This document shows, one piece after another, positions 1,042-23,761 of a stretch of DNA of 34,692 nucleotides. This stretch comes from an uncultured Cellvibrio sp. Its GTDB lineage: Bacteria; Pseudomonadota; Gammaproteobacteria; Pseudomonadales; Cellvibrionaceae. Positions within the stretch are counted from its first letter, which is position 1. Each line of letters begins with the position of its first letter. The position numbers and the translations under genes are program-made. The notes below the pieces were generated by a model. That model was not told the DNA's origin, did not search any database, and was given only the letters and a program-made list of their open reading frames with translations. The DNA is taken from the NCBI GenBank assembly GCA_946481735.1, contig CAMLOU010000027.1:1-34692 (forward strand). The letters run 5' to 3'.

Positions 1042-1057
1042 TACCTCCAGCGAGGTA
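1042..1057. promoter_or_regulatory. NarL/NarP-type 7-2-7 palindrome upstream of the narK fusion
   Basis: The sequence TACCTCC AG CGAGGTA is two facing heptamers with a 2-bp spacer, the arrangement bound by NarL and NarP (consensus TACYYMT, NN, AKRRGTA). It matches 12 of 14 consensus positions. It lies 95 bp before the start codon of the fused narK in the 123-bp gap between the two transporter genes, which suggests that narK has its own nitrate-responsive promoter. Binding is inferred. Confidence 0.6.
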
Positions 1058-3822: not shown

Positions 3823-5664
3823 TTATAACTGTCGGGCAATGAGATTTCGTTGCTGTAGATAATCCGGTGTGAAGCGGAAGTACACACCAGTACCTCCATT
3901 ATCGCGGCGGCGAATGGTTAACTCGCCGCCGAGGTTTTTGCCGCGTTCCTGCATAATAGCCAAACCATAGTGGTTGAGTTTTTCCGGCGATTGAGAAATA
4001 CCTACGCCATCATCCTCGATGCTGAGGCGAACATTTTTTAAGTCGTCCTGAATGACGCTTATCAGTACCTTGTTGCCTTCGCTGTGATGAATTGCATTCT
4101 GGGCTGCTTCACGGATTATCTGCAGTAGGTGAATTTCTTCGTTGGGCGTCAAGGGAAGATTGTTCAATTGATAATCCAGCGTAATCTCCATGTCACATTG
4201 TTCGCTGAGCTGCTTGACACTGGTTTGTAAAGAACTCAGCAGGCCCGGGCCATCGACTTTTAATCGGAAGGTGGTCAGTAACTCTCTTAACTGGCGATAA
4301 GCAGAACTCAATCCCTCTTGCAATTCTGCGGAGACATCTTCCAGGGTCGGCTTGTCATTTTTTTCCAGCGCGCGGTTCAGACGGGTCACTTGTATTTTGA
4401 GATAAGAGAGTGCCTGCGCCAGTGAATCGTGCAATTCCCGCGCAATGACGGTGCGTTCATGCACCAGTGCCAAACGGCGCGCATTGTCTTCCTGACTTTG
4501 CAAACTCAGGGCCACGGCAAGTTGGTCCGCTACGGATTGAATTAACTGCTGTTTCCAATGCTCCAGGGTTTTGCCGTTATTCATACGGCACACCAATACA
4601 CCGTAATGCTGTTGTTCGTAAAGCATCGGAAAGCTGTACCGACAAGCGCCGATAGTGTCGATCGCGCAGGCTTCCATCCCGTTACTGTCGTCGCGGATAA
4701 TTTCGCCTTTCAGGCAGCTGAAGCAATTTTTTGCAGCGCACGGCGTTGTCGTATCATCGACGGGTTTGATTTGAAGATAGGGACTGTTACCAATCTCTGT
4801 CATCAAACATAATTCAATATCATCGGCTTCAATCAGCTGCGCAAGGCGTGTCACGATACGGTCATAATCAATGCCAAGCGGCTCATGCTCAATAATATTC
4901 TTTGCTGTGTCGTACAAAAATTGCAGTGTCGTGTTGCTGCGCTGCAATGCCCGGGTTTGTTGGTCAATCTGTTCCTCCATGCGCTCATGCATGTGCGCAA
5001 TAGCTTCACTCATTCGATTGTGGGTTTGAGCGAGTATGCCCAGTTCATCAAGTTCCTGTGGTGCAATCCGATAACTGAAGTCGCCCTGACCAACGCGTTT
5101 GGCTGCTTGGGTTAATTCCGATAAGGGTTGCTCAACCTTGGCTTTTAACCAGTAGATGACAACCGCCGATAGCAACAAAATCAAGAATAACGCGGTAACC
5201 TGAACCATGCGCAGGTTGCGTGCATTGCGCTCGGCATGTTGTTGAATGCTGGCGACCAATTGGTTAAGCAGATCGACCTGTTCGGCTAGTACAGGCTGAA
5301 TATCTTGCAAGGCTGCCCCGGCTTGCAATTGTGGCTGCACTGTTTGCCAATAATTACGGGCGGCGCGGTAGGTTTCACGCAACTGTGGATTGTCATGGCG
5401 CAGGCTGTTGAAGATCGGGTGTTGCCAGGTCTGCGTCAATTTGTCAGCCACTGCCGCAAGTTGCTGTTCGTCCGTGCCTGACTGGCTGATCAACATGCCG
5501 AAGTGATAACTTTGCGCCCGCAACGAACCGGCAATGTTAACCGCAGCGGCATCGCTGTCCGCTTTATCTGAAATCCAGTAAGACGTCATCATGGTTGCCA
5601 TGGACAAGGCCACAATGCCCGCCAGGGCAATACTGATTCGAATCACAATAGACGATTGACGCAT
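3823..5664 (-). CDS. narX: Nitrate/nitrite sensor histidine kinase NarX
   Basis: This 613-residue inner-membrane kinase matches E. coli NarX (598) in length and layout. An N-terminal helix (about 8-28) is followed by the periplasmic P-box that binds nitrate (around 35-55, including NIAGSLRAQ), a second helix (155-173) and a HAMP region (about 174-225). A central GAF-like module holds five cysteines (C309, C314, C317, C333, C341). The HisKA_3 dimerisation domain has the phosphorylated histidine in ARELHDSLAQ (H412), and the HATPase domain has an N-box (REAAQNAIHHSE) and DDGVG. It should phosphorylate NarL when nitrate is present. No narL is adjacent, unlike the usual narXL pair. The gene is divergent from narG and convergent with narK. 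Its ribosome site is weak. Confidence 0.93.
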   Translation of the reverse strand: MRQSSIVIRISIALAGIVALSMATMMTSYWISDKADSDAAAVNIAGSLRAQSYHFGMLISQSGTDEQQLAAVADKLTQTWQHPIFNSLRHDNPQLRETYRAARNYWQTVQPQLQAGAALQDIQPVLAEQVDLLNQLVASIQQHAERNARNLRMVQVTALFLILLLSAVVIYWLKAKVEQPLSELTQAAKRVGQGDFSYRIAPQELDELGILAQTHNRMSEAIAHMHERMEEQIDQQTRALQRSNTTLQFLYDTAKNIIEHEPLGIDYDRIVTRLAQLIEADDIELCLMTEIGNSPYLQIKPVDDTTTPCAAKNCFSCLKGEIIRDDSNGMEACAIDTIGACRYSFPMLYEQQHYGVLVCRMNNGKTLEHWKQQLIQSVADQLAVALSLQSQEDNARRLALVHERTVIARELHDSLAQALSYLKIQVTRLNRALEKNDKPTLEDVSAELQEGLSSAYRQLRELLTTFRLKVDGPGLLSSLQTSVKQLSEQCDMEITLDYQLNNLPLTPNEEIHLLQIIREAAQNAIHHSEGNKVLISVIQDDLKNVRLSIEDDGVGISQSPEKLNHYGLAIMQERGKNLGGELTIRRRDNGGTGVYFRFTPDYLQQRNLIARQL

Positions 5665-5891: not shown

Positions 5892-5907
5892 TACCCCTTT
5901 GGAGGTA
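5892..5907. promoter_or_regulatory. NarL/NarP-type 7-2-7 palindrome upstream of narG
   Basis: TACCCCT TT GGAGGTA fits the NarL palindrome at 13 of 14 consensus positions, the best match in the window. It is 111 bp before the narG start and 227 bp before the narX start, so it could serve either gene. It points to activation by nitrate through the NarX-NarL pair, with NarL encoded elsewhere. Confidence 0.68.
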
Positions 5908-12773: not shown

Positions 12774-13639
12774 TGACCATACATCACCACACACCCGCCC
12801 AGGACACCACAGCACAAATTAACTCGGCGTTGAAGATTATTCATAGCGATACATTGATGGCCAGCGAGCGTCACAGCGTACCGGCTATACGGGTTAATCA
12901 TCATCACATTTCGGGGGAAAATATTGCAGCCGAGATGCAATATCACCCGGCCACAACGCAACGGGAAGCCATGTTCAAAGCCGCTGAAGCGCTCATTATT
13001 GGTGAATTACTTCGCCAGCGCGCGGCGTCCTTACAGTTAGACAATACCGGAACATCCGAAGATGATTTGCTCGAGGCGTTGCTGAATGCTGAAGTGACAG
13101 CACCGGAAGCAACGGACAAGGAATGTGCCCAGTATTATCACGCTAACACAGCACGTTTCGTTACCTCACCGCTGTTGGAATTGCGTCATATTTTAATCGC
13201 CGCTGCGCCCGATGATGATGAAGCTCGTATCGCAGCAAAAATGCGCGCGCAGCAACTCCTTGTCGCTTTGCAATCCGGTGAGGATTTTTCGGCGCTGGCA
13301 CTGCAGGAGTCAGCATGCCCATCCCGGACGTTGGGGGGCAGCCTCGGCCAGATTACGCGCGGCCAAACAATCCCGGAATTTGAGCGTCACGTATTTGCAG
13401 CCAAGCCCGGATTGCTATCTCATCCGATAGAAAGCCGTTACGGTGTGCATGTGGTGTGGATTGAGCGCAATATTCCCGGCACCCAGTTACCCTACAGTGC
13501 AGTAAAAGATCGGATTGCCGATTATCTGAATGAAAAAGTCCGTACCAAAGCGATTGCGCAGTACATTCACCGGTTGATTGCGCAAGCGGAGATTGAAGGT
13601 TATACGTTTGATGTATCCACTTCGCCATTGATGCAGTGA
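12773..13639 (+). CDS. Parvulin-type peptidyl-prolyl isomerase of the nar operon
   Basis: This 288-residue protein has a C-terminal PpiC/rotamase domain (about 138-235) with the family landmarks LRHILIAA, FSALALQES, GGSLGQITRG, F(E)RHVFAAKPG and SRYGVHVVWIER. The N-terminal 130 residues are helical and poorly conserved, like NifM-type isomerases. There is no signal peptide, so it should act in the cytoplasm, probably on folding or assembly of NarGHI. Similar genes close the nar operon in pseudomonads. It overlaps narI by one base and is followed 117 bp later by the operon terminator. The N-terminus is histidine-rich (MTIHHHTPAQ, RVNHHHIS). The family is clear; the client is inferred. Confidence 0.87.
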   Translation: MTIHHHTPAQDTTAQINSALKIIHSDTLMASERHSVPAIRVNHHHISGENIAAEMQYHPATTQREAMFKAAEALIIGELLRQRAASLQLDNTGTSEDDLLEALLNAEVTAPEATDKECAQYYHANTARFVTSPLLELRHILIAAAPDDDEARIAAKMRAQQLLVALQSGEDFSALALQESACPSRTLGGSLGQITRGQTIPEFERHVFAAKPGLLSHPIESRYGVHVVWIERNIPGTQLPYSAVKDRIADYLNEKVRTKAIAQYIHRLIAQAEIEGYTFDVSTSPLMQ

Positions 13640-13756: not shown

Positions 13757-13780
13757 AACGCCGGTTCCCGGCGTTTTTTT
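13757..13780 (+). terminator. Rho-independent terminator of the nar operon
   Basis: A perfect 8-bp stem, AACGCCGG and CCGGCGTT with a TTC loop, runs straight into a T tract (seven T in total). It separates narGHJI-ppi from the nrdG control region. Confidence 0.9.
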
Positions 13781-13803: not shown

Positions 13804-13819
13804 TACCTCCGACGGGGTA
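13804..13819. promoter_or_regulatory. NarL/NarP-type 7-2-7 palindrome upstream of nrdG
   Basis: TACCTCC GA CGGGGTA matches 12 of 14 positions of the NarL palindrome. It shares the half-site TACCTCC with the site at 1042. It sits 75 bp before the nrdG start codon and about 24 bp upstream of the proposed -35 element, a position suited to activation. It implies nitrate control of the anaerobic ribonucleotide reductase. Confidence 0.55.
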
Positions 13820-13842
13820 GGGTCACGCTCTGCGTTTTATGT

Positions 13843-13872
13843 TTTACTACATATAGATGGCATATATATAAA
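13843..13872 (+). promoter_or_regulatory. Candidate sigma-70 promoter of nrdGD
   Basis: TTTACT at 13843-13848 and TATAAA at 13867-13872 are separated by 18 bp. A start site near 13879 would give a very short leader before the ATG at 13895. Both elements are flanked or overlapped by the NrdR boxes, which fits repression. Confidence 0.45.
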
Positions 13873-13890
13873 AAACACTATATATGGTGA
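13844..13890. promoter_or_regulatory. Tandem NrdR boxes over the nrdG promoter
   Basis: Box 2 (13875-13890) reads ACACTATATATGGTGA and matches the NrdR consensus acaCwAtATaTwGtgt at 14 of 16 positions. Box 1 (13844-13859) has the core CTACATATAG, 9 of 10 core positions, with weaker flanks. The two boxes start exactly 31 bp apart, the three-turn spacing expected for cooperative NrdR binding. NrdR is the ATP/dATP-sensing repressor of ribonucleotide reductase genes; its gene is not in the window. Confidence 0.75.
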
Positions 13891-13894
13891 TTTC

Positions 13895-14356
13895 ATGGAG
13901 TGTCTTCGCTTTACCAACGAGCAGATTGTCTGGCAGGAAGTACCGGGAGAAACGAGCCTGGCTTATACCATCAGTGGATGCCGATTGGGCTGTGTGGGTT
14001 GTCACAGCCGCCACACCTGGAACCCACATGCAGGCCAACCGCTTACCGACGATTACCTCAGTCGCCGAATTCAGGAGTATCGCGACATGATCACCTGCGT
14101 GCTTTTTCTGGGTGGTGAATGGCAACCACATGCGCTCTTGCCGCTATTGATCCTCGTTCGTAACGCTGGATTATATCGATGTCTCTACACCGGACTGGAA
14201 CACATTTCTCCCTCTTTGCAAGAACACCTTACTTACCTAAAGACAGGTCCATGGCGACCCGAACTCGGCGGACTGACCAGTCCGAAGACAAATCAACGCT
14301 TTATTGATCTTCGCACCAACGAAATCCTGAACCATAAATTTACCCAAACCTTTTAA
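13895..14356 (+). CDS. nrdG: Anaerobic ribonucleotide reductase activating enzyme NrdG
   Basis: NrdG is a radical SAM enzyme that installs the glycyl radical on NrdD under anaerobic conditions. The motif CRLGCVGC (C29, C33, C36) is the CX3CX2C ligand set for the 4Fe-4S/SAM centre. GGEW lies in the expected SAM-contact position, and the 153-residue length is normal. The ATG at 13895 is chosen; the frame is open back to a TTG at 13679, but that extension runs through the terminator and the NrdR boxes. The ribosome site is weak (GGTGA) and overlaps NrdR box 2. nrdD follows after 10 bp. Gene order nrdG-nrdD is the reverse of E. coli. Confidence 0.95.
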   Translation: MECLRFTNEQIVWQEVPGETSLAYTISGCRLGCVGCHSRHTWNPHAGQPLTDDYLSRRIQEYRDMITCVLFLGGEWQPHALLPLLILVRNAGLYRCLYTGLEHISPSLQEHLTYLKTGPWRPELGGLTSPKTNQRFIDLRTNEILNHKFTQTF

Positions 14357-14366
14357 GGAGAATGAC

Positions 14367-16208
14367 ATGTTACGTCTCAATCCGGAGCAGCTGGACCATA
14401 AGCTGAATTTTATTGCGAATTATCTTGCGGCTGACAATGCGGCTGATAGTTCAAGGATGGACCCCAATGCCAATGTGACGCAAAAAAATATTGCGACATT
14501 GGAAACCGAGTTGATGAAAGATTTTTTTGTCCAGGTCAACCGTGCCAAGGTGAAACAAAAAATATCAGCATTATTTGGCGAAGCGTTGGCTAATGAATAC
14601 CTACGCCAAATAGAACACCATGAAATTTATGTGCACGATGAAACCAGCCTGAAGCCTTATTGTGTGTCACTCACGCTCTATCCCTTCCTGCGCGACGGCT
14701 TAACCAAATTAGGTGGGGAGTCCCGCGCACCCCAACACCTCGAATCTTTCTGTGGCAGTTTTGTAAACCTGGTATTCGCGGTAAGCGCGCAATTTGCCGG
14801 CGCAGTAGCAACCGTTGAGTTTCTGACATACTTTGATTACTTCGCACGCCGCGACTATGGAGATAACTATCTGATCACGCATACCCGCGAAGTGAGCAAT
14901 CATCTACAGCATGTGGTCTATGCGCTGAATCAACCTGCCGCAGCCCGGGGTTACCAAAGCGTTTTCTGGAATATCTCGCTCTACGACAGTCATTACTTTG
15001 AGGCTATGTTTGGTAATTTTGTCTTCCCGGATTTTACCAAACCAGATTGGACATCCGTGTGTGCTTTGCAGGATTTCTTTATGGGATGGTTTAATCAGGA
15101 GCGTACAAAAGCCATCCTGACGTTTCCAGTGGTCACGGTTGCGATGTTGACAGAGAAGGGTGGGTGCAAGGATAGCCAATTTGCCAATCGTATGGCGGAA
15201 CAACTGGCCCAGGGAAATTCTTTTTTTATTTATCTGTCAGATAACGCCGATTCACTGGCATCCTGCTGCCGGTTGCGCAGTGAGATTAACGATCACACCT
15301 TCTCCTATACCTTGGGGGCCGGTGGTGTGGCAACGGGTTCAATCAACGTCATTACGCTGAATATGAATCGCCTGGTGCAGGACGGTCGAGATCTTGCTGA
15401 GGAAGTGCATAAGGTCCATCAATACCAGGTAGCGTATCGACAACTGATGGAGGAGTATCTGGCGGCAGGGATATTAAGTGTATACGACGCCGGGTTTATC
15501 AGCCTGGACAAACAATTTCTCACCATTGGTATTAATGGCATGGTTGAGGCCGCTGAATCCCAAGGCTTATTGCCTGGTAATAACCCTGATTACATCGCCT
15601 TTGTCCAGCGCCACCTGAGGATCATCTTTGAAGGGAACAAGACCGCAAGGAAACGCTGGGGTTATTTGTTTAACACGGAATTTGTGCCCGCAGAAAATCT
15701 CGGGGTTAAAAATGCAAAGTGGGATAGGGCAGACGGCTATTTTGTCCCGCGTGATTGTTACAATTCCTATTTCTATCCGGTGGAAGACGAAACTATCAAT
15801 ACGATTGACAAGTTTTTATTACACGGGCGTCAGCTTGTCGACTATCTGGACGGTGGCTCCGCATTACACCTGAATCTAGAGGAAGCATTGGATAAACAGG
15901 GCTTCATATCTTTGCTGAATATTGCGGCGCGTAGTGGCTGTAATTATTTTTGTGTAAACGTAAAAATCACCATCTGTAACCAATGTGACCATATTGATAA
16001 ACGCACCCTGAGCGAATGCCCGGCGTGTCGTTCGCAGGATATCGATTATGGTACCCGTGTCATCGGCTACCTCAAGCGTGTTTCGGCCTTTAGTAGTGGG
16101 CGAAGAAAAGAGCACGCCCTGCGTCATTATCATCGGACACCCAGGGATCTACCCATACAACTACCTAAAAAGGCGCATAGTGCTGCTGCCTTGATACAGT
16201 TACTCTAG
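14367..16208 (+). CDS. nrdD: Anaerobic (class III) ribonucleoside-triphosphate reductase NrdD
   Basis: NrdD makes deoxyribonucleotides by glycyl-radical chemistry, strictly without O2. The glycyl radical site is G567 in RVIGYLKRVSAF. A zinc site of four cysteines (C537, C540, C551, C554) precedes it. The active-site cysteine is likely in DSLASCCRLR, a form common in shorter class III enzymes. The 613 residues are about 100 fewer than E. coli NrdD, and no N-terminal ATP-cone is evident, since the chain begins near the first catalytic-domain helices. If so, dATP control may act through NrdR rather than on the enzyme. The tail after the glycine is 46 residues, longer than the 31 in E. coli, and basic at first. 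AAGGAG precedes the ATG. Confidence 0.94.
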   Translation: MLRLNPEQLDHKLNFIANYLAADNAADSSRMDPNANVTQKNIATLETELMKDFFVQVNRAKVKQKISALFGEALANEYLRQIEHHEIYVHDETSLKPYCVSLTLYPFLRDGLTKLGGESRAPQHLESFCGSFVNLVFAVSAQFAGAVATVEFLTYFDYFARRDYGDNYLITHTREVSNHLQHVVYALNQPAAARGYQSVFWNISLYDSHYFEAMFGNFVFPDFTKPDWTSVCALQDFFMGWFNQERTKAILTFPVVTVAMLTEKGGCKDSQFANRMAEQLAQGNSFFIYLSDNADSLASCCRLRSEINDHTFSYTLGAGGVATGSINVITLNMNRLVQDGRDLAEEVHKVHQYQVAYRQLMEEYLAAGILSVYDAGFISLDKQFLTIGINGMVEAAESQGLLPGNNPDYIAFVQRHLRIIFEGNKTARKRWGYLFNTEFVPAENLGVKNAKWDRADGYFVPRDCYNSYFYPVEDETINTIDKFLLHGRQLVDYLDGGSALHLNLEEALDKQGFISLLNIAARSGCNYFCVNVKITICNQCDHIDKRTLSECPACRSQDIDYGTRVIGYLKRVSAFSSGRRKEHALRHYHRTPRDLPIQLPKKAHSAAALIQLL

Positions 16209-18380: not shown

Positions 18381-18873
18381 TATCTTGCTCCGCCAATTCC
18401 TCTGTCAACTCCAGCAGGCCGCGATACAAAAACGGTGGCAATATTTTCGTAATCTCTACTCGGTCAAGTAAATTTTTGACAGCGAGTCCCAGTTCCGTAT
18501 CGCCGGTAATCCGCAATCTTCGTCGAAAAAATAATGTATCCGGGTCAATTTTTCCAGCGGCTAATAACATAAAGTCTTTTAACTCCGCTGCCACAAGAAC
18601 ATCAGCTTTATCATTTGTAATGTTGACCACCAGGCGGTTTTTTTTCTGGCCTACCGAAAAACGCAAAGCGATATCAGTAACCTGAATAAGTATCCTGCGC
18701 TGCTTAATAAAATCCAGCTCTCCCTGCTTTATGGGATCGCGAAAGGCGAAATTTAGCCAGTACGCAATGGAGAATCGCAGTAACGCTGAGGGTGTTTGCG
18801 TCACCAGGGTTTTGGTTGCATTAGGTAGCCTAGCTACCACTTTCTGGGTAACCCATTTGCGTTTAAACATCAT
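18364..18873 (-). CDS. ubiT: Ubiquinone biosynthesis accessory factor UbiT (SCP2 domain)
   Basis: UbiT (YhbT) is an SCP2-fold lipid carrier required, with UbiU and UbiV, for O2-independent ubiquinone synthesis; it is thought to bind the hydrophobic intermediates. The 169-residue protein has the family N-terminus (basic, PSALLRFSIAYWLNFAF) and the SCP2 core from about residue 45 (GELDFIKQRRILIQVTD, NITNDKADVLVAAELKDFMLLAAGKIDPDTLFFRRRLRI, split here only for reading). The start is one of two adjacent ATG codons at 18873 and 18870, after GAGGT. It is divergent from ubiU across 76 bp and its 3' end overlaps sdhB. Confidence 0.9.
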   Translation of the reverse strand: MMFKRKWVTQKVVARLPNATKTLVTQTPSALLRFSIAYWLNFAFRDPIKQGELDFIKQRRILIQVTDIALRFSVGQKKNRLVVNITNDKADVLVAAELKDFMLLAAGKIDPDTLFFRRRLRITGDTELGLAVKNLLDRVEITKILPPFLYRGLLELTEELAEQDIKHPA

Positions 18874-20895: not shown

Positions 20896-23043
20896 ATGAT
20901 GACTCAACAAGATTCTGCTGACGTGGGGATGTCCTCGGATATCACGGATTTACAACCGGCGTCTTATGACATCTGGGATAAAAAATATCGTTTGAAAGAC
21001 GGCGATGTTTGTCTCGATCAAACAATGGCGGACACCTGGCGCCGAGTTGCAAAAGCTTTGGCCGAGGTCGAGCCGAAACGTAAAGCGCATTGGGAAAAAG
21101 AGTTCCTGTGGGCGCTGGAACATGGTGCCATTCCTGCGGGCCGGGTTATTTCCAATGCAGGCGCACAAAGCTGGAAGCCGGCAACGTCTACCATTAATTG
21201 CACGGTATCCGGGACAATCGAGGACTCCATGCACGGCATCCTGGAGAAGAATCTGGAAGCCGGGCTGACATTAAAAGCGGGCTGTGGCATCGGTTATGAA
21301 TTTTCGACGTTACGTCCCAAAGGTGCCTATGTTGCCGGTGCGGGTGCCAATACATCGGGTCCGCTTTCGTTCATGGATATCTTCGATAAGATGTGTTTCA
21401 CAATATCTTCTGCAGGGGGGAGACGCGGTGCGCAGATGGCGACCTTCGATGTATGTCATCCGGACGTCATAGAATTTATTCATGCAAAGCGTGAAGACGG
21501 GCGCTTGCGTCAATTCAATCTGTCCCTGCTCATTACCGATGAATTTATCCAGGCCGTGAAAGCTGATGCCAGCTGGCCGCTGTCTTTTCCATTAACGGAG
21601 CGGGACCTTGAGCGAACAGCGCTAGCGCTGGATGATCCCAGCCAGGTTATATGGCGCCGCCTGGATCACTTGTCCTTAGAATATCGGCATAACGCGATGG
21701 GTGAGGTGGCCTGTAAAATCTATAAAAAAATTCCTGCGCGGCAATTGTGGGACCAGATCATGCGCTCTACTTATGATTTTGCCGAACCCGGTTTTATTCT
21801 GATTGATCGGGTTAATAAATGGAATAACAACTGGTTCTGCGAAACGATTCGCGCCACCAATCCTTGCGGTGAGCAACCTTTACCCCCCTATGGAAGTTGT
21901 TTGCTGGGCTCGGTGAATCTGACCCAGTTTGTTGATCAGCCGTTTAGCGAACAAGCGGCCTTCAATTGGGAAAAATTCCGGCGGGTAGTGAGTGTGTTTA
22001 CGCGGATGCTGGACAATGTTGTGGAGATTAACGGCCTGGCCTTACCGGAACAGCAGCAGGAAATCTATCGCAAGCGACGCCACGGTATGGGATTCCTGGG
22101 GCTTGGCTCGGCATTAACGATGCTACGCATTGCTTACGGCAGCCCGGCATCAGTAGCCTTCACCGAAGAGGTAAGTAAAGAACTGGCGCTGACCGGTTGG
22201 CGTGCCGGGGTCGCCCTTGCCCAAGAGAAAGGCGCCGCACCGATATTTAATGAAGACTTCATATTAACGCCAGGCATGTTGTCTATGCGTCCTGCATTGA
22301 AGCAGCACTACAAAGAAGGTGATAGTGTAGCGGGGAAAGTTTTATTGGCTTATTACAGTCGCTACATGAATTTGCTGGCTGAAGAAGATCCCCAATTGGT
22401 AAAAGATATCGCCACATATGGTTGCCGGTTCACTCACCATAGCTCTATTGCTCCCACCGGAACTATCTCATTGTCGCTGGCTAATAATGCCAGCAATGGC
22501 ATTGAGCCGAGCTTTGCGCATCATTATTCGCGTAATGTTATTCGCGCAGGTCGTAAGACAAAGGAGAACCTGGATGTGTTTTCTTATGAGCTTCTTCGGT
22601 ATCGTGAACTTTGTGATCCGCGGGCAAAACCTCATCCGCAAGAAGGTGAAACGGGCTTGCCTGAGTATTTTGTAGTAAGCGATCAGATTACGCCTGAGCA
22701 GCATGTCGATGTTCAGGCCGCTGCACAAAAATGGATTGACTCCTCTATCTCCAAAACCATCAATGTGCCTACCGACATCTCCTATGAAAATTTCAAGAAT
22801 ATTTATCTCTATGCATATGAAAAAGGGCTCAAGGGGTGCACTACGTTTCGGTATAACCCGGAGGCATTTCAAGGTGTGCTGGTAAAGCGACAGGATCTGG
22901 AAAACACTACGTATGTCTTCGAATTGGCTGATGGTTCCAGGGTGGAATTCAAGGGCAACGAGATGGTGGAGTACGAGGGAGAATTACACATGGCTGCAAA
23001 CCTCTACGATGCACTGAAAGAAGGCTATTATGGGAAATTTTAA
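20896..23043 (+). CDS. nrdJa: B12-dependent (class II) ribonucleotide reductase, large catalytic chain NrdJa
   Basis: This adenosylcobalamin-dependent reductase works with or without O2. The 10-stranded barrel core is complete, with the active-site loop N322-P-C324-G-E326 in TNPCGEQPLPPYGSC, where C324 is the thiyl radical and N322/E326 assist. An N-terminal cysteine of the redox pair lies in STINCTVSGTIEDS. HHSSIAPTGTISL is the phosphate-binding segment. The 715 residues match the NrdJa chain of Pseudomonas, where the enzyme is split in two. The ATG at 20896 (followed by a second ATG) has AAAAAGG upstream; an in-frame TTG at 20866 is less likely. No ATP-cone is evident. nrdJb follows after 9 bp. 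Confidence 0.95.
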   Translation: MMTQQDSADVGMSSDITDLQPASYDIWDKKYRLKDGDVCLDQTMADTWRRVAKALAEVEPKRKAHWEKEFLWALEHGAIPAGRVISNAGAQSWKPATSTINCTVSGTIEDSMHGILEKNLEAGLTLKAGCGIGYEFSTLRPKGAYVAGAGANTSGPLSFMDIFDKMCFTISSAGGRRGAQMATFDVCHPDVIEFIHAKREDGRLRQFNLSLLITDEFIQAVKADASWPLSFPLTERDLERTALALDDPSQVIWRRLDHLSLEYRHNAMGEVACKIYKKIPARQLWDQIMRSTYDFAEPGFILIDRVNKWNNNWFCETIRATNPCGEQPLPPYGSCLLGSVNLTQFVDQPFSEQAAFNWEKFRRVVSVFTRMLDNVVEINGLALPEQQQEIYRKRRHGMGFLGLGSALTMLRIAYGSPASVAFTEEVSKELALTGWRAGVALAQEKGAAPIFNEDFILTPGMLSMRPALKQHYKEGDSVAGKVLLAYYSRYMNLLAEEDPQLVKDIATYGCRFTHHSSIAPTGTISLSLANNASNGIEPSFAHHYSRNVIRAGRKTKENLDVFSYELLRYRELCDPRAKPHPQEGETGLPEYFVVSDQITPEQHVDVQAAAQKWIDSSISKTINVPTDISYENFKNIYLYAYEKGLKGCTTFRYNPEAFQGVLVKRQDLENTTYVFELADGSRVEFKGNEMVEYEGELHMAANLYDALKEGYYGKF

Positions 23044-23052
23044 GGTGAGCCT

Positions 23053-23712
23053 ATGACTGCGAAGATCGACCAGAAAATTACGGGTGTGTATGTAAAACCC
23101 AAAGCGGATGATGGCGCGAACGCGATAGAGCAAATGCATGAAAAATTCGAACGGCCGGAGATGCTGACAGGGTCGACATACAAAATAAAAACACCTTTGT
23201 CGGATCATGCTCTGTATATCACGATCAATGATGTGATTCTGAATGCGGGCACTGATCATGAAACGCGCAGGCCTTTTGAGATATTCATTAACTCAAAGAA
23301 TATGGAACATTTTCAATGGGTGGTTGCATTGACACGGGTTATTTCCGCCGTATTTCGCAAAGGTGGTGACGTGACATTCCTGGTGGAGGAGCTGAAGGCG
23401 GTCTTTGATCCCCAAGGGGGATACTTCAAATCCGGTGGCCGTTTTATGCCGTCACTTGTGGCTGAGATAGGGGATGCCATTGAAGCTCATATGAAACATA
23501 TTGGTCTGATAACCCCGGAGGAGCCAAGCGAATACCAAAAGCAGTTGTTACAGGAAAAGCGTAAGGAATATGAAGATCGTCATAATCTCGTAACCGCGAA
23601 TAACGAATACCCCTCATCCGCTGAATTATGTTTGAAGTGCCATACGAAGGCAGTCATTGTTATGGATGGTTGTAAAACCTGCCTAAGCTGTGGCAATTCA
23701 AAATGTGGTTAA
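23053..23712 (+). CDS. nrdJb: Class II ribonucleotide reductase small chain NrdJb (TSCPD domain, redox tail)
   Basis: This is the second piece of the split class II reductase, 219 residues. The N-terminal two thirds is a TSCPD-type domain (GGDVTFLVEELKAVFDPQGG around 115-135). The C-terminus carries six cysteines, C193, C196, C207, C210, C213 and C218, in the order expected for a zinc finger followed by the redox-active pair at the extreme end (SCGNSKCG), which re-reduces the active site. In Pseudomonas the two chains are both required. A stem of AATCATTA/TAATGATT starts in its stop codon. Confidence 0.92.
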   Translation: MTAKIDQKITGVYVKPKADDGANAIEQMHEKFERPEMLTGSTYKIKTPLSDHALYITINDVILNAGTDHETRRPFEIFINSKNMEHFQWVVALTRVISAVFRKGGDVTFLVEELKAVFDPQGGYFKSGGRFMPSLVAEIGDAIEAHMKHIGLITPEEPSEYQKQLLQEKRKEYEDRHNLVTANNEYPSSAELCLKCHTKAVIVMDGCKTCLSCGNSKCG

Positions 23713-23747: not shown

Positions 23748-23761
23748 TTGATCAAAGTCAA
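23748..23761. promoter_or_regulatory. FNR/Anr/Dnr box upstream of the DGC gene
   Basis: TTGAT CAAA GTCAA matches the FNR-family palindrome (TTGATNNNNATCAA, with GTCAA a common right half) at 9 of 10 positions. It is the only strong FNR-type box I find in the window. It lies 68 bp before the start codon of the DGC protein, suggesting anaerobic or NO-dependent activation. Confidence 0.68.

Follow-up and report, generated by a model that had tools for sequence, protein, structure and literature searches.

The question raised by this locus is whether an anaerobic ribonucleotide reductase operon, nrdGD, is placed under the joint control of the nitrate response regulator NarL and the repressor NrdR, as a first-pass annotation of the DNA had suggested. 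In the window (the whole stretch of DNA analyzed here, 34,692 nt), nrdG and nrdD lie within a nitrate-respiration island from a bacterium resembling Cellvibrio, and the nearest genome, G001, belongs to the genus Cellvibrio. The island encodes narK genes, narX, narGHJI, ubiTUV, nrdJab, nsrR, nnrS, and norB (several of these names were assigned by eye). The activase of the class III reductase, a radical SAM protein, is encoded by nrdG (13895..14356, forward strand, with the ATG at 13895), and the class III (anaerobic) ribonucleotide reductase itself by nrdD (14367..16208, forward strand; PF13597, E 6e-104). Upstream of nrdG, ppiC ends at 13639 and is followed on the forward strand by a terminator-like hairpin with a T tail (13757..13780, stem 13757-13775), which splits nrdG from the upstream nar operon and makes it probable that nrdG has its own promoter. 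From sequence comparison, we propose with moderate confidence that nrdGD is a nitrate-activated (NarX/NarL), NrdR-repressed class III reductase operon, in which NarL takes the place of FNR in this strain.

The NarL-type 7-2-7 palindrome reported by the first-pass annotation, TACCTCCGACGGGGTA, is confirmed in letters and coordinates at 13804..13819 (forward strand); its center lies 83.5 bp before the nrdG ATG, and it is conserved in relatives. The consensus used for NarL and NarP consists of inverted heptamers, TACYYMT-N2-AKRRGTA. Compared with TACYYMTNNAKRRGTA, the palindrome fits this arrangement with two mismatches, both of which fall where the heptamers meet the spacer. The NarL consensus of Pseudomonas aeruginosa, TAC(C/T)N(A/C)T, agrees with the heptamer (PMC4409342, excerpted text). 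Two further sites lie on the forward strand, one located by motif scan upstream of narG (TACCCCTTTGGAGGTA, 5892..5907) and one upstream of the second narK (TACCTCCAGCGAGGTA, 1042..1057), the latter with a left heptamer identical to that of the nrdG site. The window holds six 7-2-7 sites at ≤2 mismatches, compared with 1.51 expected, and 2 of 100 shuffles reach six; for the 255-bp intergenic region, a site arises in 76 of 5000 shuffles. Taken singly, the palindrome has a chance origin that is only modestly unlikely. Across 340 kb, comprising the window and seven islands related to it, 20 sites occur at ≤1 mismatch, several of them ahead of narG, narK, narX, and narL, compared with 2.3 in shuffles that preserve single-base content only; at ≤2 mismatches, 68 sites were observed and 40.1 were found in the same kind of shuffles.

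Two other readings of the region ahead of nrdG were considered and rejected. A coding constraint on the palindrome is not favored, given that 33 of 40 sites (from 39 named loci) lie in no open reading frame of ≥90 codons, with the remaining 7 set aside, and an RNA leader ahead of nrdG has as its sole Rfam match one at chance level.

Among 21 Cellvibrio genomes, nrdG occurs in seven, nrdD in the same seven, and a NarL protein 56-59% identical to that of Escherichia coli again in the same seven; in two further genomes the only NarL matches are at 29-34%, as are those of second copies in four of these seven. The recognition-helix stretch of NarL, TVKVHVKH, is identical to that of E. coli in all seven genomes. 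The cognate sensor kinase, narX, is encoded in the window (3823..5664, reverse strand) with 96% identity to the G001 copy, and its product contains a P-box-like stretch, AGSLRAQSY (AGSLRMQSY in E. coli NarX). Every Cellvibrio genome with nrdGD, G001 included, also encodes the partner, narL; no narL was seen in the window itself, where by analogy with the G001 layout the gene would lie just beyond the edge. The narG gene accompanies nrdGD in five of the seven genomes and is absent from G016, a complete assembly; it was not found in G021, an assembly of 77% completeness in which a contig breaks off at narHJI.

The check on close relatives proposed by the first-pass annotation, in which loss of the palindrome would have counted against a regulatory role, came out in its favor: a 7-2-7 site at ≤2 mismatches is kept upstream of nrdG in six of the seven Cellvibrio nrdGD genomes, and the seventh (G014) carries a form one base shorter. 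An FNR site is likewise found upstream of nrdG in six of the seven (in one case with one mismatch), centered at -86.5 or -87.5 relative to the start codon. Among these six FNR-bearing promoters, the NarL site precedes the FNR site by 29 bp in four and by 39 bp in G021.

For the second half of the proposed control, the first-pass annotation had claimed two NrdR boxes 31 bp apart, and this claim holds. Box 1, TTACTACATATAGATG (13844..13859, forward strand), is weak when considered singly, with six mismatches, and is recognized by its pairing with box 2 at 31 bp, a pairing conserved in relatives. Box 2, ACACTATATATGGTGA (13875..13890, forward strand), is strong, is separated from the start codon by 4 bp, and is the sole match at ≤3 mismatches in the window, where 0.26 are expected and 24 of 100 shuffles have one. 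The distance of 31 bp from center to center corresponds to a 15-bp spacer, within the 15-16 bp that separate paired NrdR boxes. According to the available portion of one source, two boxes with a 15-bp spacer are the usual arrangement, and NrdR binds such pairs (PMC12051234). The window shares these features with NrdR-repressed ribonucleotide reductase promoters, and it would differ from them in that its boxes lie at and downstream of the start, if transcription begins near 13850. The nrdR gene itself is found in all seven Cellvibrio nrdGD genomes, the G021 copy being in two pieces that fall below the cut-off.

The position of the start of transcription determines how NarL and NrdR would act. 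In FNR-bearing relatives, the consensus between the FNR site and NrdR box 1 contains a -10-like element, CTAAGCTAAA, that immediately precedes box 1; this would place FNR at class II distance and the start inside box 1. The -10-like elements of related promoters read TAAGCT, TATGCT, and TAGCCT, and the window has TATGTT (13838..13843, forward strand) within 3 bp of their place, with a predicted start near 13850. The first-pass annotation had instead recognized a sigma-70-like promoter, TTTACT and TATAAA with 18 bp between them; these hexamers lie on the forward strand at 13843-13848 and 13867-13872 and would give a start near 13879. The letters and the 18-bp spacing of that promoter are as described, but its identity as a promoter is doubtful: TTTACT fits the consensus at four of six positions and TATAAA at five of six, and G001 has AATAAA at equal spacing. 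A promoter scanner did not list this pair of hexamers, which is no test of it, because the scanner's rule requires T at position 6 and thus excludes such a hexamer. Since TATGTT is identical in G001 and TATAAA is not, we infer a start near 13850, with the NarL center near -38.5, and regard the conserved -10 just upstream of NrdR box 1 as more likely to be the promoter than the hexamers of the first-pass annotation.

If transcription nevertheless began near 13879, NarL would be centered at about -67.5 and would act as an upstream helper of TTTACT-18-TATAAA in the manner of nirB, with the NrdR boxes at -27.5 and +3.5. This distance resembles the upstream NarL position at nirB, which is about -69.5, and the five-of-six fit of TATAAA is in keeping with it. 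The substitution to AATAAA in the nearest relative, the poorer fit of TTTACT, and the alignment of relatives, which are merely A-rich between the boxes and have the -10-like element before box 1, all weigh against an upstream-helper position, and we consider it rather unlikely.

The comparison was extended to the best 80 of 186 named loci, all of which have the order nrdG-nrdD; four of these (L072, L082, L089, and L090) come from Cellvibrio-genus genomes that also figure in the counts above. Loci were termed linked when any of narG, narH, narI, narJ, narK, narX, ppiC, or ubiU was present, which applies to 62 of the 80. A NarL site at ≤2 mismatches within 300 bp was found in 39 of the 62 linked loci (38 of 62 when the spurious-looking L066 site at -291.5 is left out), compared with 2.07 expected by shuffles, and in none of the 18 unlinked loci; two Mannheimia loci with only a narH match had been moved by hand to the unlinked group, and with these two placed in the linked group the counts become 39 of 64 and 0 of 16. 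At ≤1 mismatch, 19 of the 62 linked loci have a site, and 0.13 are expected. The site-bearing genera include Rheinheimera, Arsukibacterium, Alishewanella, Aliidiomarina, Idiomarina, Thalassolituus, Paraglaciecola, and Pseudoalteromonas, and the unlinked loci belong to Neisseria, Pasteurellaceae, Cardiobacteriaceae, and one Saccharospirillum; because the two groups also differ in kinship, the effect of linkage cannot be separated from that of descent. FNR sites occur ahead of nrdG in 57 of the 62 linked loci and in 5 of the 18 unlinked ones, and FNR is likely the main activator in most relatives. The claim of joint control by NarL and NrdR is supported by comparison within Cellvibrio and across the linked loci.

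The spacing between NarL and FNR sites in this group of loci is concentrated in a few fixed values: 73 bp in 23 loci, 72 bp in three, and 29 bp in six, with single cases of 39, 57, 59, 66, and 203 bp. Over 20 non-redundant rows of the 23 in the 73-bp class, the palindrome columns carry 1.54 bits, compared with 0.28 in the left flank and 0.63 in the right, and the FNR site carries 1.90. Between its NarL and FNR sites, the same class (e.g., L057 and L080) has another conserved patch, about CTGCGnCnTnGCGC, to which no regulator was matched. Among the 23 linked loci that lack a site at ≤2 mismatches, seven have a 7-1-7 form, six have a three-mismatch site (five at the homologous -160.5 position and one at -71.5), and ten have neither. 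In L059, L060, L065, L070, L071, L076, and L077, a 7-1-7 palindrome lies about 20.5-21.5 bp upstream of FNR with GGGGTA directly before it. Sites within 350 bp of other genes are rare at nrdD (3/80), narH (2/36), narJ (5/42), narI (1/42), and ubiV (0/34), and are more frequent at norB (9/35) and ubiU (7/40). Across the order, an nrdG match was obtained in 9 of 390 genomes; in the seven further nrdGD genomes, which lie outside Cellvibrio (G001 and one poor match left out) and were taken without regard to nar linkage, the FNR site is present in all seven and the NarL site in one, 29 bp from FNR, so that the arrangement is common without being general.

Within Cellvibrio, the window and G001 alone depart from this pattern. 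No FNR site (TTGATNNNNATCAA) was found ahead of nrdG at ≤2 mismatches in either, including at the class II position near -41.5, and in both the NarL site is centered at -83.5 from the ATG, the position that FNR holds in relatives. An FNR homologue is encoded in G001 and in all 13 other Cellvibrio genomes searched, and FNR sites persist elsewhere in the G001 island, including one in front of the gene that immediately precedes nrdG; transcription driven by FNR could consequently read through into nrdG in G001, although the same hairpin-forming sequence stands between the two genes. The G001 gene in question, HemN-like by eye and situated between ppiC and nrdG, is absent from the window together with its upstream FNR site.

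When promoter types are placed on an NrdD tree (a quick-method tree with some long branches, whose filter left out 7 of the 80 named loci, and on which the label for a weak or 7-1-7 site was assigned by hand), the group with NarL and without FNR (five rows) requires three changes: in Cellvibrio (the window and G001), in Paraglaciecola, and in Pseudoalteromonas. The NarL site of Paraglaciecola, at -148.5, lies outside FNR's slot, and that of Pseudoalteromonas, at -71.5 or -72.5 and 34 bp from box 1, lies near it; none of the three NarL-bearing Paraglaciecola and Pseudoalteromonas promoters has an FNR-like site at ≤1 mismatch. It is conceivable, if somewhat less than probable, that nitrate sensing has replaced oxygen sensing in all three lineages and that, in the window lineage, NarL is the sole activator from FNR's former slot, with nitrate licensing the anaerobic supply of DNA precursors. 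Nitrate, rather than the lack of oxygen, may therefore be the switch for nrdGD in this strain.

In the mechanism that we favor, NarX, encoded in the same island, would sense nitrate, and phosphorylated NarL would bind the palindrome at 13804-13819 and raise the transcription of nrdGD. An NrdR tetramer with ATP/dATP would occupy both boxes, at and downstream of the start, and would repress the operon when dNTPs suffice. The ancestral promoter, still recognizable in most relatives, would have been FNR class II-like, with FNR near -41.5 and the -10 just before NrdR box 1, and with NarL further upstream, at 29 bp from FNR in most Cellvibrio and at 73 bp in Rheinheimera and its relatives. In the window lineage, the FNR site would have been lost and the NarL palindrome would have come to lie in its slot, near -38.5 when counted from the start predicted around 13850. 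We infer NarL binding, activation in preference to repression, the start site, and the substitution of NarL for FNR from the DNA letters and their conservation.

The same position is compatible with an opposite effect, in which NarL covers the -35 region and represses nrdGD, so that nitrate would lower the class III enzyme and nrdJab would take over. The palindrome would indeed overlie the -35 region of the predicted promoter, and nrdJ, at E ≤1e-40, is present in the window and, of the 21 Cellvibrio genomes, only in G001; furthermore, NarL is known to repress one FNR promoter, that of dmsA (PMC3688515, excerpted text). Against repression, nrdGD in Cellvibrio is confined to the genomes with a close NarL, mostly with narG (5/7), which argues for its use during nitrate respiration, and no nrdJ match was found in any of 11 genomes, the NarL-without-FNR Paraglaciecola and Pseudoalteromonas genomes among them (with no positive control and with L096 outside the search). 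We regard repression by NarL as quite unlikely. The presence of nrdJ as a general cause of FNR loss was likewise unsupported by this search.

Finally, a relic or chance origin of the palindrome, with only NrdR and a constitutive promoter acting, is very unlikely: the modest significance of the single site, its two mismatches, and the prior loss of FNR in the lineage would allow this, but the palindrome is conserved across the wider group, and 15 of its 16 letters are kept between the window and G001, the latter being weak evidence because the surrounding 140-bp region is itself at least 81% identical (an ungapped underestimate).

Activation by NarL, with repression by NrdR, can be compared with known systems. 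At E. coli nirB, a 7-2-7 NarL site lies upstream of the FNR site at 28 bp from center to center, similar to the 29 bp in four of the six FNR-bearing Cellvibrio nrdG promoters, and NarL displaces IHF there and enhances FNR-dependent transcription (PMC3688515, in the portion available). The window differs from nirB in its target, a ribonucleotide reductase, in the added NrdR boxes, and in the missing FNR site. The nrdDG operon of E. coli is likewise a class III reductase under anaerobic control, although its gene order is nrdD-nrdG rather than nrdG-nrdD. The accessible text of PMC3688515 places E. coli nrdD among the genes that FNR activates in nitrate and nitrite, and suggests co-activation by NarL/NarP; in that of PMC1805755, FNR is assigned to E. 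coli nrdDG, and NarP is a candidate regulator of nrdDG in 1 of 10 genomes, without conservation. Within 393 bp upstream of E. coli nrdD, neither a 7-2-7 site at ≤3 mismatches nor an exact heptamer occurs, and FNR-like sites are present.

In P. aeruginosa, NarL activates nrdR, and NrdR acts on reductases of all three classes (PMC4409342, excerpt), so that NarL is tied to nrd control through nrdR, whereas NarL control of nrdR was rejected for Cellvibrio, with no site at ≤2 mismatches in the six of the seven genomes scanned. Furthermore, nrdD of P. aeruginosa is activated by Dnr, with a damaged Dnr box in the PAO1 nrdD promoter (PMC5645315, excerpt), and is unchanged in a narL mutant of strain PAO1 (PMC4860495, excerpt). 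This result, like the lack of a 7-2-7 site at E. coli nrdD, counts against the favored mechanism. As for the view that activation of a class III reductase by NarL is not a standard arrangement, a link between nitrate and nrd genes is itself precedented in the available portions of PMC3688515 and PMC4409342. Among the matches listed, no title was recognized as describing NarL sites conserved ahead of nrdGD or an FNR site lost from that promoter, most subscription papers being outside the coverage, and the accessible parts of PMC1274295, PMC3223726, PMC8139620, and PMC8575079 contain nothing on NarL at nrdGD.

Under the proposed mechanism, DNA synthesis without oxygen would be tied to the electron acceptor that is actually at hand, and the class III enzyme in these bacteria would be part of a nitrate-respiration module, as opposed to serving a general anaerobic function. 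The promoter types, with NarL and FNR at 73 bp, NarL and FNR at 29 bp, and NarL without FNR, would also provide a natural series on the replacement of one activator by another.

Several additional features of these islands were observed. A split class II reductase (nrdJa and nrdJb) is located at 20899-23712 of the window, directly after ubiUV. The 5' end of ubiT, on the side toward ubiU, bears a NarL-like palindrome (window 18835-18850); among the other islands scanned, only G001 has one at that place. An FNR-like site lies ahead of a DGC-domain gene (window 23748-23761), and ahead of dgc in the G016 island, a NarL site is situated 29 bp upstream of an FNR site, in the same layout as at nrdG.
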